A stretch of 64,000 nucleotides of DNA, from NCBI GenBank assembly GCA_964017185.1, contig OZ024871.1, positions 57,401,226-57,465,225 on the forward strand, in the 5' to 3' direction. The first letter of the stretch is position 1, and each line of letters opens with the position of its first letter. Positions 9,001 through 20,900 of this stretch are shown here, in pieces. The notes beneath the pieces were generated by a model, which saw nothing but the letters and a program-made list of their open reading frames with translations, was not told the DNA's origin and ran no database searches. The position numbers were made by a program, and so were the translations under genes. This stretch comes from Rugalucina vietnamica (taxonomy: Eukaryota > Mollusca > Bivalvia > Lucinida > Lucinidae).

Positions 9001-12000
9001 AGGTACATGTAACTAACTGTTTTGCAAGACATGCTTAAGGGATTTAAGTAAAAGCTTGATACAAAGCCAATAGAAGCGTTATGGCAATTAGTTTTCAACT
9101 ATGGAATGATATTATTTATTCAAAAATGAAAACTTGAGAAGCTAAATGATACATTTCCTCTGTAATTGCAACTGCATTATTAAATATGATTTTCATGTTT
9201 CTGTATTTCTAGCATTTGTGTATTTAATTAACATATCTATTTCCAGCTCCGTGTTGCTGCGTACGACAGTTTCTTCCCGGATAACCGAGCGTTTGCCTGG
9301 GTATACATTAATGTGACGAGGAATGAGATAGGACCTGTGTTTATCAACCCACAGACATACTTCACATCTGTCAATGAATACGAACGAGAATTCACAGAAA
9401 TATTCCAGGTTATGGCACAGGATGCAAACGGGGTGAGTTGAGCAGGGTGTTTTTGTATCCGAGAATATTGAGTAAAGATAAACTTTCAAAGACATGGTTA
9501 GCAGCCATGTTATGAACATGTGTAATTCTAATGGCTGCATAAATAATTCTCCCAATGGGTAGAAGCTGCCCTTTATGATGCAATGCCAGTTGCAAGCTTT
9601 CTGACCAGTTTCAACACCATCTAATAGTTGTAGATCCTGATTGTTGCAGTTTTGGTTTCATAACTATTTTTCATTATTTTCAAAATGAAATATTATAATT
9701 GTTATTATGATGCTTGCAATATATTTTTTCAGGACATGATCTCCTATCGTATTGTGGACCCACAGGCTGACGAGTACTTCTTTATTGACCAGAATGGAAG
9801 AATTTTCATTGAGAAGTTGCTAGCCCTTAACCCAACTGTCAGACAATACCAGGTATAGGCAAACACTTTATTTTCTAGAATTATTTCCCTGCCAGCTATT
9901 ATCTGAATGAATATCTGTGAAAGATAACACAAAACTACAATAACTAAGAAGAAATAAGCACTACCTCCCTATTCTCTGTATGACTAGCAAGTAAGTTATT
10001 GTTAATATGAGCCGTCTCGTGGGAAAACCAACAATGTGGTTTCCGAACAGGTCCAACACAAACCCAGCTGTACAAGCACAAAAAGGAGCTAGAAGCTTGA
10101 ATTTTCGGATTTAAGTGGAAGAGGAATTGCACTATCCGAGTAGCGAAAACAAAGGCGCTGATCAGCTTCGCGGTTTTTGCATATGCAGATTGTTGGTTTT
10201 CTCATGAGGCGGCTCATATAATTTGATAAACTAAATAACATTGACTATTTGTGTACATGAATTAATTAGTCATTATCTGTTTGTATATTTTGCTAGTTTG
10301 AGATTGAGGCCAGTGATAACCGCCTGTTCTTCGGTAAGACAGCCCGAGCCACTATGACGGTAGACGTGATAGAGAACCAGTACCCGGTGTTCCGTAACCT
10401 GCCCACGAGGATACAAGTCTCAGAGTATGATATCATCAACAGAACAGTGTTCCAGGTCGATGCTAATGATCCTGATCTCTTAGACAGGGTAGGGCTACAC
10501 ATCTTTTATATTCAGTTTTATGTCTCTTTCAAGATTATTTCACACATGTTGGACAAGACACTAAGTAGGTGGGACAAAAACAAGAGTATGCTGAGAAAAA
10601 CAAGCTGACACACACCCAAGCAGAATTTTGCTTGTCTTGACATATGTCCAGAATCATGTCTAGAGATGTATGAGCTGCCTTATGAGAAAACCAACAATCT
10701 GCCTAGGCGAAAACAAAGGCACTGATCAGCTTCGCAGTAACTGTGAAGCTGATCAGCGCCTTTGTTTTTGCTACATGGATAGTACAATTCCTCTACTTTC
10801 TAAATCCAAAATTTCTAGTCTCTAACATCTTCCGTGATAGTACAGCCTGGTTTGCGTCCTTTCAGAAACCACATTGTTGGTTTTCCCACGAGGTGTCTCA
10901 GATGTATGATTCTGACACAAAGTGCTGTTACAGTAGAGATCTCTGGGTGATAGGCATGAAGAAGCAATATCCTTGTTAGTAATTAGAAGTCATAATCCTA
11001 AAAATTGAAATTACCTATCTATCTTCATATACTGAGACGATCAATTTCTAATCATTATCTCAGGTAATGTATACCTGTAGTTTTGATCAAAAGTAAGACA
11101 TTTGTGGCTTAGCTAGAGAGATGAGTTTGGTTAAGTCTATGACGCTTTACATTTTCAGAGTCAGCTGTTACACTATATAACTGGAGTTGGACGAGCTCCT
11201 GGCTTCTTTGCCATTGACCCACTGACTGGAGCAATCTCCATCACAAACGACTTGAGGAATGGAAATCAGCTTCAATACACGGTAGGAAACCTCAAAAACT
11301 TGAAGGATTGAAAACTTATTGTGTTATACCAGTTCTGTGCCTCTTAAAAGTTTAGATAGATGATTTTTATTGTTGAAAATAATGTCAGGCCTCTGATATT
11401 ATGGCTGTGTGGTAGTAAAACATGTTATGTTTATTTTTGCAGCTGCATATCACTGTTATGTTTTTGCAGCTGCGTATTATCATATTTTACATTCGTTATG
11501 TTTTTGCAGCTGCATATCACCATATTTTACATTCGTTATGTTTTGCATGCATATCACCATATTTTACATTCGTTATGTTTTTGCAGCTGCATATCACCAT
11601 ATTTTACATTCATTATGTTTTTGCAGTGGCATATCAACATATTTTACATTCGTTATGTTTTTGCAGCTGTGTATCACCATATTTTACATTCGTTATGTTT
11701 TTGCAGCTGCATATCACCATATTTTACATTCGTTATGTTTTTGCAGCTGCATATCACCATATTTTACATTCATTATGTTTTTGCAGCTGCATATCACCAT
11801 ATTTTACATTCATTATGTTTTTGCAGTGGCATATCAACATATTTTACATTCATTATGTTTTTGCAGCTGTGTATCACCATATTTTTAGCTCACCTGAGCC
11901 GAAGGCTCATAGGTGAGCTGATAGTATACCCATGCTCCGTCGTCCGTCCGTCCGTCGTCCGTCGTCCGTCCGTCCGTCGTCCACAATTTCAAAGATCTTC

Positions 12001-15000
12001 TTCTCTGAAACCGCTGGGCCGATTGTTCTCATATTACACATACACCATCTACAGGTAGGGGGAAAGAATAATTGTGTTTTTTGTATTGATCGGATAAGGA
12101 CTCTGGTTGCTATGGCAACTTATGCTTCCCATAGACTTATAATGGAAAAAAGTGAAAATTGCCAGTTTTTGCTGTCTTGTTGGAGATATTTGAATTTTGT
12201 TTTTGCAGAAATGTTTATTGAGTAGTCCTCTACGTTTCATGTGACTTTTGTCCTAATCCTTCATTTTGATTGGTTGCAGGGGCCCCATATAGGGCAAAAT
12301 TTCGAAAAACATTCAAAAATCTTCTTCTCAAAAACTGTCAAGGGGATGAAGCCTATACTTTGTATACATGTTCCTGACAGTGGCCTCTACATAATTTGTG
12401 TTTTTTATTCCAGGCAGATAAGAACTCTGGTTGCTATGGCAACTTAAAGTGTCCATAGACTTATAATGGGAAAAGTGGAAATCGGCTATTTTTCCGCTAA
12501 AATTGCAGACATTTGAATTTTGTTTTTGCAGAAATGTTTATTGAGTAGTGTTTGACGTTTCATGCGAGTTTTGTCCTAATCTCCTTTATTTTGATTGGTT
12601 GCTGGGGCCCCATAAAGGGCAAAATTTTGAAAAAAACATTCAAAAATCTTCTCCTCAGAAACTGTCAAGTGGATGAATCCTGTACTTTGTATACATGTTC
12701 CTGACAGTAGACTCTACATAATTTGTGTTTTTTATTCCAGTCGGATAAGAACTCTGGTTGCTATGGTAACTTTAAGTTTTCATAGACTTATAATGGGAAA
12801 AGTGGAAATTAGCTATTTTTTGAAAACTATTGCAGCCTGAGATCTGAAAAGTGGTAGATGCAAACAACTAATGGATTAGATGAAGGTATATGATTAATTT
12901 AGGTCAAGGTCATCTCTTGACCTTGGCCGGTCTGTCGTCCATACACACTTTTCAAAGATTTTTTTCTCTGAAACCACTTGGCCAATCAAAGCCAAATTTT
13001 ATTTGAAGCATCTATAGGAAGTGGGAACCAATGTATATATAAATAATCCAGGTCACATGACCAAGATGGCCGCCATGCCCATATATGGTAAAAACCCTTA
13101 AAATATCTTCTTATCCAGAACCGTTGAACCGATTTCAACGAAACGTTGCATGAAGTATGGATGACTCAAGTACTACAATGTATATATAAAACATGACCCT
13201 GTGGTGACCTTGACCTATTTTATGGCAAGGTCAACATAGGTTGTCAATGCATTTGAATGGGGAAAACTTTTAAAATGTCATTTTAAGTGAAAGTCTTGCA
13301 GGAAAAGGGCAGTAGGACTGAAATTTAATGATTCTGAAAAAAAAATGGACCCCAGGGGCTCATCTGTTTTTAAAATGTTATTTGAAGGGGAAAATCAGCA
13401 GGAAATTGGCAAATGGACAGAATATTGATTACTCTGAAAAAAAAAAAAAAGAAAATGGCCCAAGGGCTTCATCTGTCCCTGCACTGGGGTTAAATACCAT
13501 AATATTCAAATATGTTTATTGGTATATGAAGCAGATCTCAGGTGAGCGTTTACAGGACCATTGGTCCTCTGGTATATGTTTTTGTATCTGCGTATCGCCA
13601 TATTTGACATTCGTTTTGTTTGTGTTTGTAGCTGCGTATCGCCATATTTGACAGCCAGATCAGTTCAATGAGGAGTTACAGTGACATCACTATAGACATG
13701 ACACGTAACACCAACGGCCCAGTGTTCCAGGAGAGGCCATACAGGCGTGATCTCACATGGCGACAGCTGCCAGGAATGGTGCTTCAACTACTCGCTATAG
13801 ATGCTGATGGGGTAAATATATAAGACAGTATTTCTTGTAAAGTGTGAACCTAGATTTCCTGTGTGTACTGGTTGAGTATGAAGATTATTTCTGCATGGTA
13901 TTTTATTTTAGCAGTGAATATGTTGGCATTTCATGTAGAAAATTTTGAAATATCTTCTAATTATGCCTAAAAAAGATGCACATGATGATGAATTTTTTTC
14001 ATCAAAATGCTCCTTAAATGTCTGTCTCCTACCTGCTTGATGGAAAATCCATTACAGCTAGGGCAGTCCCTGTTTCGAGTCCATAGAATATTACCAGAGT
14101 TTGTTATACAAAATTATGTATGCCAATTTTTATTCATTCCAGGATGCTGTTAGTTACTACTTTGATGCTAACAATGATCCGGAGATCAACAGATACTTCC
14201 GTATTGACACATCAACAGGGGAAATCTACCTTGTACGAACACTGCCACCCAAACAGACAGGATTTGTGGTAAGCTAATATGATGGTGTGCTGTTTGATGG
14301 AATGTAGTGGAGACTACACTCATGATTTTGTCCTCACAGATATTACAAATGTTTGACAATGATTTAAAACAGCATTTATGCACCAGTGATTTGTAACCAT
14401 AGTCCTCACTGTCCCTTTGGAGTGTGGTTCCCAAGCAGCGTGTCTGACTCTTGATCGAGAGGTCAGGGGTTGTTTTCCCACTGTTTCCTGGTTACACCTG
14501 AGGTGATGATCAGAAAATGGTCGACTCAGTATCTGAAGACAGAAAGTATCCTATAGCAAGGCCCATCAACTGATCATAGCACTGGATAATATTCAGGAAG
14601 CATTGACTGAAAAATGGTTGACAGGGACATCAAACATCTCAAGTCATTGATACACCTGCACCTCTTTATAACATGGTTCGTTACAGCACTATTTTGGATA
14701 CTGATCAGTGCTGGACCCATTGTAGACTAATTTTGCTTATCTATGCATCTTATCTCATATAACACGGATTGCATAGCTTACACGGAAATTGGTGTGGACC
14801 CCAAATAGTGTTATAAAGAGGTTGAGGTGTATTAATGGTTTTCTTCACAGATAAACGTTGAAGCCCGTGACAACAGAAACCCAGGGCAGTCAGACAGGAC
14901 ACAGGTCATCTTCACGGTTGAAATTGATCAGTACGTGCCCGACTATGGTATAACCCCAGATCCCACATACAATCTGCCAGTATACCGAGTCAGTATACCC

Positions 15001-17971: not shown

Positions 17972-20900
17972 TCCGCGTAGCTTCTTTCTTACGCGATATC
18001 TTTTGAACCAGTGGATGGATTTTGACCAAACTTGCATAGATACATGGTTGGGAGGGGGGAAAGAGTTGATTAGATTTTGGTGACCTTGACCTCATTTTCA
18101 AGGTCACCAGCCCATGAAAACTGATCAAATTAGGTTTTCTGACGCGATATCTTCTGAACAAATGAATGGATTTTAAGCAAACTTGCACAAGAGCATTGTT
18201 GGGAGGAGGCTCAGAGTTGATTAGATTTTGGTGACCTTGACCTAATTTTCAAGGTCACGAGTCCATAAAAACTGTTGAAATTAGTCTTTCCAACTCAATA
18301 TCTTGAAAACCAATTGATGGATTTTGACCAAACTTGCACAGAAGCATTGTTGGGAGGAGGCTCAGAGTTGGTAAGATTTTGGTGACCTTGACCTAATTTT
18401 CAAGGTCACAAGTCCATAAAGAATGTTGAAATTAGTCTTTCCAATGCAATATCTTGTAAACCGATTGATGGATTTTGACTTAACTTGCACAGAAGCATTG
18501 TTGCGAGAAGGCTCAGAGTTGATTAGATTTTGGTGACCTTGACCTAATTTTCAAGGTCACGAGTCCATAAAAAATGTTGAAATTAGTCTTTCCAACGCAA
18601 TATCTTATAAACCAATTGATGGATTTTGACCAAACTTGCACAGAAGCATTGTTGGGAGAAGGCTCAGAGTTGGTTAGATTTTGATGACCTTGACCTAATT
18701 CTGAAGGTCACGAGTCTATAAAACTGTTGAAATTAGTTTTTCCGATACGATATCTTGTAAACTAATTGATGGACTTTGACCAAACTTGCACAAAAGCATT
18801 GTTGGGAGGAGGCTCAGAGTTGATTAGATTTTGGTGACCTTGACCTAATTTTCAAGGTCACGAGTCCATAAAAACTGTTGAAATTAGTCTTTCCAATGCA
18901 ATATCTTGTGAACCAAATGATGGTTTTTGGCCAAACTTGCACAGAAGCATTGTTGGGAGGAGGCTCAGAGTTGATTAGATTTTGGTGACCTTGACAGAAT
19001 TTTCAAGGTCACGAGTCCATAAAAACTGTTGAAATTAGTCTTTCCAACTCAATATCTTGAAAACCAATAGATGGATTTTGACCAAACTTGCACAGAAGCA
19101 TTGTTGCAAGAAGGCTCAGAGTTGATTAGATTTTGGTGACCTTGATCTAATTTTCAAGGTCACGAGTCCATAAAAAATGTTGAAATTAGTCTTTCCAATG
19201 CAGTATCTTGTAAACCAATCGATGGATTTTGACCAAACTTGCACAGAAGCATTGTTGAGAGGAGGCTCAGAGTTGATTATATATTGGTGACCTTGACCTA
19301 ATAATCAAGGTCACGAGTCCATAAAAAATGTTAAAATTAGTCTTTCCAACGCGATAACTTGTAAACGAATGGATGGATTTTGACCAAACTTGTACAGAAG
19401 CATTGTTGCGAGAAGGCGCAGAGTCGGCTAGATTTTGGTGACCTTGACCTAATTTTCAAGGTCACAAGTCCATAAAAAATGTTGAAATTAGTCTTTCCAA
19501 CGCAGTATCTTGTAAATCAATTGACAGATTTTGACCAAACTTGCACAGAAGCATTGTTGGGAGGAGGCTCAGAGTTGATTAGATTTTGGTGATCTTGACC
19601 TAATTTTCAAGGTCACGAGTCCATAAAAAATGTTGAAATTAATCTTTCCAACTCGATAACTTGTAAACCAATTGATGGATTTTGACCAAACTTGCACAGA
19701 AGCATTGTTGCGAGAAGGCTCAGAGTTGATTAGATTTCGGTGACCTTGACCTAATTTTCAAGGTCACGAGTCCATAAAAAAATGTTGAAATTAGTCTTTT
19801 CACTGCAATATCTTGTAAACCAGTTGATGGATTTTGACCAAACTTGCACAGAAGCATTGTTTGGAGGAGGCTCAAAGTTGATTAGATTTTGATGACCTTG
19901 ACCTAATTTCCAAGGTCACGGGTCCATAAAAACTGTTGAAATTAGTTTTTCCGATACGATATCTTGTAAACTAATTGATGTATTTTGACCAAACTTGCTC
20001 AGAAGCATTGTTGTGAGGAGGTTCAGAGTTTATAAGAATTTGGTGATTGTGACCCAATTTTAGACAGGGTCCAAAACAAGTTTAAACTATCACACCTTAC
20101 ATGGTGTCTTCCCTAGAAAAACTTCATATCACAAGGTAACTACACTTCAATTACTAAACGGTTGGGGGGACATAGTTTTCCTCAGAAAACATTGTTTTAA
20201 TCTTACTTTTTTTTACAGGTAAGGGCTTTCACGGGCCGATCAACTCCTACCACAGTTTTTGATGGAACAATTTGATATCATGCCTACATGATGTACACCC
20301 ATTTGACATTTGCATGAAGAAATGTTATTGTGAAAAAATAATTTTTGTTAAAATTACAGCAATGAGAACTTAGAAAATTTTTCTTAGTTTTTTGATAGGT
20401 AAGGGCTTTCACAGGCCGATCAACTCCTACCACAGTTTTTGATGGAAAAATTTGATATCATGCCTACATGATGTACACCCATTGGACATTTGCATGAAGA
20501 AATGTTATTGTGAAAAAATAATTTTTGTTAAAATAACAGCAATGAGAACATAGACAATTTTTCTTAGTTTTTTTTACAGGTAAAGGCTTTTACGGGCCGA
20601 TCAACTCCTACCACAGTTTTTGATGGAAAAATTTGATATCATGCCTACATGATGTACACCCATTGGACATTTGCATAAAGAATTGTTATTGTGAAAAAAT
20701 AATTTTTGCGGTAAACAGTTACCCTGCGGGGGGTATTTAATAAGCATTGCTTATTGTCTCTTTTTTCATTTAAGATTATGTAGGAACAGTTTGGCATACC
20801 TTATTTTGAGTATGTTCTTACCTATTTCCAGTTCTATGTTGATGTTACTGACGATGGCAATCCCAGTAGAACCACTACAGTGACGGTCAATGTGAATGTT

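Follow-up and report, generated by a model that had tools for sequence, protein, structure and literature searches.

How does an intron come to hold a dozen near-equal versions of its own splice acceptor, and how would the splicing machinery choose among them? This question is raised by a 40-bp minisatellite in a very large cadherin gene of the lucinid bivalve Rugalucina vietnamica, part of which is carried by the 64,000-nucleotide window analysed here (contig OZ024871.1, our C3, plus strand, positions 57,401,226 to 57,465,225 of the 1.09-Gb, 47-contig assembly GCA_964017185.1). Window positions are used throughout, and the names exon 10 and exon 11 are counts from the window edge rather than from the gene start. 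We propose that the array very probably arose, with little effect on fitness, as a side product when the 3' splice junction of exon 11 was duplicated locally in tandem, and that the decoy acceptors it carries are mostly ignored.

Structure and origin of the array

Tandem Repeats Finder (TRF) identified a period of 40 bp with 10.9 copies and 92% matches at 11455-11885; a truncated first unit puts the start near 11431, and register alignment resolves copies 1-12 within 11431..11885 on the plus strand. By both approaches the unit holds the intron end as well as the exon start of the adjoining exon, a full copy consisting of about 18 intron bases (pyrimidine tract and AG) followed by the exon's first 22 bases. 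The exon-like parts of copies 1-12 start at 11443, 11470, 11510, 11547, 11587, 11627, 11667, 11707, 11747, 11787, 11827 and 11867 and match the exon at 11, 18, 19, 18, 19, 16, 19, 19, 19, 19, 16 and 16 of 22 nt, respectively (19 in six copies). Copy 1 is truncated, with 27 bp to the next copy, and copy 12 is interrupted by an insertion, beyond which copy 13 follows (exon-like start at 13588) and then, at 13632, the true junction. A 25-nt core with at most three mismatches occurs in 11 places, ten in the array plus the true junction, and in none of 100 shuffles. The AG is retained in many units, not all: an initial annotation of this DNA had counted about a dozen decoy acceptors, and while there are indeed 13 copies, only 11 keep the AG, which is removed in copy 4 (approximately 11532..11571, plus strand) by a 3-bp deletion across the acceptor and lost in copy 13 (13575..13618, plus strand), which adjoins the exon and whose acceptor reads TAT. 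Selection for AG loss in copy 13 need not be invoked, as the median AG-free stretch of 29 tabulated sites (28 others and exon 11) is 30 nt, versus 44 nt here had the AG stayed.

The view that the array arose by tandem amplification of exon 11's own 3' splice junction, already put forward in the initial annotation, is upheld by the perfect agreement of copy 13 with the exon (22/22 nt), by the alignment of the exon 11 start with the starts of paralogous exons of the gene (LRVAAYDS, LRVFAYDS, LIVKTYDP and others), and by a DNA search of the whole assembly with the unit, in which the five matches among the best candidates scored all fall within the array (one place scored). Because its start is homologous to those of paralogous exons, we take the exon as old and the array as derived, so that copying likely proceeded from exon to array. 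Within the window's gene, exon 11 has the sole junction whose copies exceed the highest of 10 shuffle scores by more than 6 (56 versus 22), out of 29 acceptors and 18 donors, none of the latter exceeding that margin.

Within 11574..11885 (plus strand) a 112-nt block of the array is repeated 200 bp further downstream with a single mismatch, pointing to a putative unequal exchange or block slippage.

The initial annotation had treated 11431-13650 as one minisatellite. The array at 11431-11885 and copy 13 lie within these limits, but 11886 to about 13571 is a dispersed-repeat insertion that interrupts copy 12 (11886..13571, ends approximate and set by eye; genome search and site scores). Its first 181 nt occur in at least 40 places in the genome at 90-100% identity, this locus included, among the 40 of 189 candidates that were scored. 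The insertion also contains internal 327-bp tandem units at 12068-12835.

The host gene

The nine exons between 9247 and 16308 join in frame, and every length is divisible by 3 (three ends were placed by eye). Their joined product matches the Pfam Cadherin domain over four stretches (E 2.2e-45), and its top match among solved structures is CELSR1 (5.7e-40). A hidden Markov model (HMM) built from the gene's own exons gives 84 plus-strand matches and none on the minus strand across 184 kb, with cadherin exons extending at least 60 kb upstream of the window, and "exon 11" is therefore only window-edge numbering. The upstream exon 10 (11159..11281, plus strand), placed by this model and its junction, ends in a phase-0 donor after 11281 (ACG/GTAGGA). 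Exon 11 (13632..13811, plus strand; LRIAIFDSQ...), the array's probable source, is preceded by a true pyrimidine-rich tract and TAG acceptor at 13619..13631 (plus strand) and followed by the donor GGG/GTAAAT. No close second copy of exons 10-12 was found among the best candidates scored, the top match beyond the gene itself having 37% identity. Introns of the same gene also hold a 19-bp array of 21 copies (1215-1616) and a satellite-like 151-bp array of 13.8 copies (17983-20061; 88% matches).

Acceptors in abundance, donors in short supply

Acceptors were scored with a position matrix trained on 28 further acceptors of the cadherin gene, which themselves score 1.1-11.0 when left out in turn (median 7.1). 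On this scale the true site scores 10.35 and the 11 AG-bearing decoys 10.16-13.47, of which four outscore the true site and seven fall short of it by no more than 0.2; the copies thus resemble competent acceptors, in agreement with the initial annotation. The insertion adds five acceptor-like sites (12209, 12280, 12414, 12532 and 12741; 10.35-10.75), and these 17 sites together outrank the rest of the 101 AGs in 11331-13632. The same annotation had contrasted CAG in the decoys with TAG at the true site. The true site does read TAG; as a signature separating decoy from true site the contrast was rejected, TAG being ordinary in this gene (6 of the 28 other tabulated acceptors). A branch-like TTTAC lies 21 nt upstream of nine of the 11 decoys, and the true acceptor has TTGAC at -25, inside copy 13, as the only match to yUnAy between -45 and -15; this motif is absent from many real sites in the same scan.

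Donors are another matter. The 18 real donors score -1.2 to 11.7 (median 8.5), that of exon 11 scoring 9.0. The claim that the units offer no GT donor is literally wrong, given 25 GTs in the array, but the best two (GCT/GTGTAT in copies 7 and 12) score 4.05 and none is convincing as a donor. The insertion likewise carries weak donors, the best at 5.63 and 5.36, the latter being CAG/GTAGGG (12055..12060, plus strand), a plausible partner for decoy pseudo-exons. The intron is, in short, rich in acceptors and poor in good donors.

The initial annotation placed all decoys in the right phase; the frame relative to exon 11 in fact rotates from copy to copy, and because 40 is not a multiple of 3 the statement has no coding meaning, holding only in the sense that the local junction is the same in every decoy. 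Translation continued from any AG-bearing decoy (11 in all) meets a stop at 11886, 11914 or 12056. When the flanks of the insertion are joined (the joint being approximate), two of the 11 decoys are in frame yet stop before the exon, and nine are out of frame. The consensus unit is free of stops in all forward frames, but so are 6.2% of 20,000 shuffles, and the open frames of the array were therefore discarded as a sign of coding.

A probable by-product of local duplication

We posit the following history. A segment of roughly 40 bp across the exon's 3' splice junction would have been tandemly duplicated and would have grown to at least 13 copies via slippage or unequal exchange, with one or more blocks of units duplicated at a 200-bp lag and the copies remaining intronic. 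A dispersed repeat later split the array, leaving the greater part of it 1.7 kb away from the exon. The decoys would mostly be ignored if splice sites are recognised across the exon, such that an acceptor paired with the real donor 180 nt downstream is favoured; in our interpretation they are passed over because none has, at exon distance, a donor that equals the real one in quality. Use of a decoy with no new donor would meet a stop, while use with a weak array donor could stay in frame.

Several observations weigh against this account. A few other junctions of the gene also top their shuffles slightly, by up to 6, and the direction from exon to array is inferred from within-gene homology. 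The silence of the decoys is likewise something we infer. Two of the 18 real donors (-1.2 and 3.7) score below the best array GTs, and a weak donor therefore does not exclude use. The two best array donors form 15 decoy-donor pairs, all 15 free of stops; seven of them keep the frame, two such being 11627-11668 and 11827-11868, both of 42 nt, so that low-level mis-splicing need not always harm. These seven pairs temper our confidence in a nearly neutral by-product, which is still high. The donor-like site at 12054 (5.36) would also allow pseudo-exons; all eight of those tested (up to 500 nt) carry a stop or shift the frame.

Local duplications elsewhere in the genome

Exon 11 is not the only place where an exon edge has been copied. 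In a scan for local copies of 168 exon edges over 184 kb, two stand apart: the left edge of exon 11, scoring 55, and a right edge scoring 51, ahead of a third-best 29 and of 26 as the highest among 30 shuffled queries. That right edge belongs to a donor-side junction duplication in the same cadherin gene (L007:4125-4242, G000:C3; 58 bp in two copies, 95% identical), about 60 kb upstream of exon 11 and about 46 kb upstream of the window start. Its unit comprises the exon's last 48 bases and GTAAGTCAAG, and both copies keep the donor. At the same locus (L007:216-901) a 33-bp array of 20.8 copies stops about 100 nt before a cadherin exon; local scans gave no similarity between this array and the neighbouring exon.

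Outside the cadherin gene, three of 19 ABC-transporter exon loci have local repeats over an exon edge (edges placed by eye), diverged to 72-74%, and these duplications are older than the cadherin ones; the 19 loci are not independent, L049 and L050 looking like copies of one exon. All three lie around 1352-1709 of their loci: in L057 both copies keep the donor AAG/GTAAATT (73%), in L052 the donor has decayed (74%), and in L051 the exon start was copied upstream without its AG (72%). The remaining 30 loci of the edge scan gave three matches (L024, L034 and L042), all from the cadherin search and from the scan alone.

Exon edges are nonetheless not favoured sites. Local direct repeats within 1.5 kb were found at three of 84 cadherin exons and three of the 19 ABC loci, versus 49 of 150 and 31 of 114 non-coding windows, a comparison between windows that are not strictly alike (exon plus 80 nt per side against 300 nt of non-coding DNA) and from a scan that misses exon 11 itself and is the sole source of two of the three cadherin matches (near -34.9 kb and -15.4 kb). 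The idea that arrays concentrate at exon edges is refuted: a single one of the 34 arrays across the gene span includes an HMM exon edge, versus 8.1 expected on average by random placement, a count in which HMM edges approximate exon ends and which leaves out exon 11's own array, separated as it is by the insertion. The greater richness of non-coding windows in repeats and the under-representation of arrays at exon edges argue against a special junction-duplicating process, and the commonness of local repeats in non-coding DNA supports the array as a by-product of local duplication. The plain reading is that local duplications abound in this genome and that some of them persist at exon edges.

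Alternative explanations

One alternative is that RNA structure hides the decoys, neighbouring copies pairing through the palindrome TGCAGCTGCA, which spans the acceptor of the consensus unit, and so burying the AGs. The 460-nt array is predicted to fold stably (z -4.38; none of 100 shuffles as stable), and mean unpaired probability is 0.19 at the 11 decoy acceptors versus 0.43 at 28 real sites, with p = 5e-5, a value overstated in that array copies are not independent; six consensus units in tandem are matched or beaten by three of 200 shuffled units. The true site is also low, however, at 0.27; with the acceptor bases fixed and the remainder shuffled, 21 of 300 units bury the acceptor equally deep, and a unit with the exon's letters and TAG does so about equally (0.20 versus 0.17). 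After the unit-shuffle control, masking is a weak candidate for the chief cause of decoy silence, and we consider this alternative unlikely, although predicted self-pairing of the RNA may add to that silence.

It is distinctly unlikely that the array is a functional acceptor sink, in which the decoys rival the true site, or give rise to extra exons by pairing with donors of the array or the insertion, with copy number setting the amount of normal cadherin mRNA. Eleven strong acceptors upstream of the true site would suit such a role, as would the stops and frame shifts of the eight pseudo-exons described above. So would the pattern of variation among the nine full 40-bp copies, where seven of 40 columns vary, six of them at exon-derived positions +1 to +11, and none of the 14 bases up to the AG does (a pattern noticed afterwards, with copy 4 excluded). 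This uniformity is, however, explained by recent block duplication, the AG has been lost in two of 13 copies, no array donor is comparable to the median real donor, and the amphioxus cases discussed below are reported as silent (PMC3087553, PMC3902484). More speculative still, and very unlikely, is a combination of the two, namely a copy-number-variable sink, masked by its own palindromic TGCAGCTGCA, whose dozen strong decoys would govern what fraction of transcripts includes the true cadherin exon and whose length would tune gene output, with recurrent junction duplications providing a heritable, length-variable splicing dial in many genes.

Intron gain under way, with an exon-derived copy giving the donor and a downstream copy the acceptor, as boundary duplication has been reported to do in potato RdRp (PMC4974935), is highly improbable: copies 7 and 12 do offer GCT/GTGTAT and seven of the 15 decoy-donor pairs are open and in frame, but these donors are weak (4.05) and the insertion now separates the array from the exon.

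Comparison with known systems

Read from its sequence, the array fits the architecture of the amphioxus "mirages" described in the globin genes BflGb6 and BflGb9 and in Adh3, and discussed for TnC and PGBD5 (PMC3087553, PMC3902484). These are minisatellite-like tandem copies of an intron-exon boundary, on the 3' or 5' side, in which AG or GT is kept in many, not all, units and clusters are homogenised, and splicing is reported in those accounts to be undisturbed. The present case differs in its 40-bp unit, in its position on the acceptor side of a cadherin exon and in being split from that exon by a dispersed repeat; splicing, reported for amphioxus, is here predicted from DNA. The variable number tandem repeat (VNTR) in intron 18 of human ABCA7 is its donor-side counterpart, a tandem array with a 25-bp unit that likewise includes the splice site of the adjacent exon, and for which a transcript keeping one unit has been observed (PMC5954066). 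Unlike the bivalve array, it lies on the donor side, starts at the real donor, varies in copy number and is associated with human disease. In potato RdRp the 3' splice junction was duplicated together with its pyrimidine tract, AG and putative branch site, and the duplication is spliced as a new intron (PMC4974935), whereas here there are many copies, predicted to go mostly unused. At human exon-intron borders, tandem repeats have been linked to putative new introns (PMC2812944).

Our literature search returned no report joining tandem repeat, splice acceptor, cadherin and bivalve, and in it PMC3087553, on amphioxus, was alone in combining four or more of five terms for a junction minisatellite. 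In intron 7 of human factor VII, 37-bp repeats with pseudo donor sites stand beside the real donor. What is new is another animal genome for a known phenomenon, one in which it is apparently recurrent.

Significance

With several examples in one genome, R. vietnamica extends the few cases we found in which a gene's own splice junction has been duplicated in tandem (amphioxus, human ABCA7 and potato RdRp). The exon 11 locus provides a naturally occurring test of acceptor choice by the splicing machinery, with a dozen near-equal sites in a single intron. If the decoys are silent, recognition across exons would be favoured over acceptor strength; if they are used, array copy number would be a splicing variant. 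Junction duplications of this kind are also raw material for intron gain.

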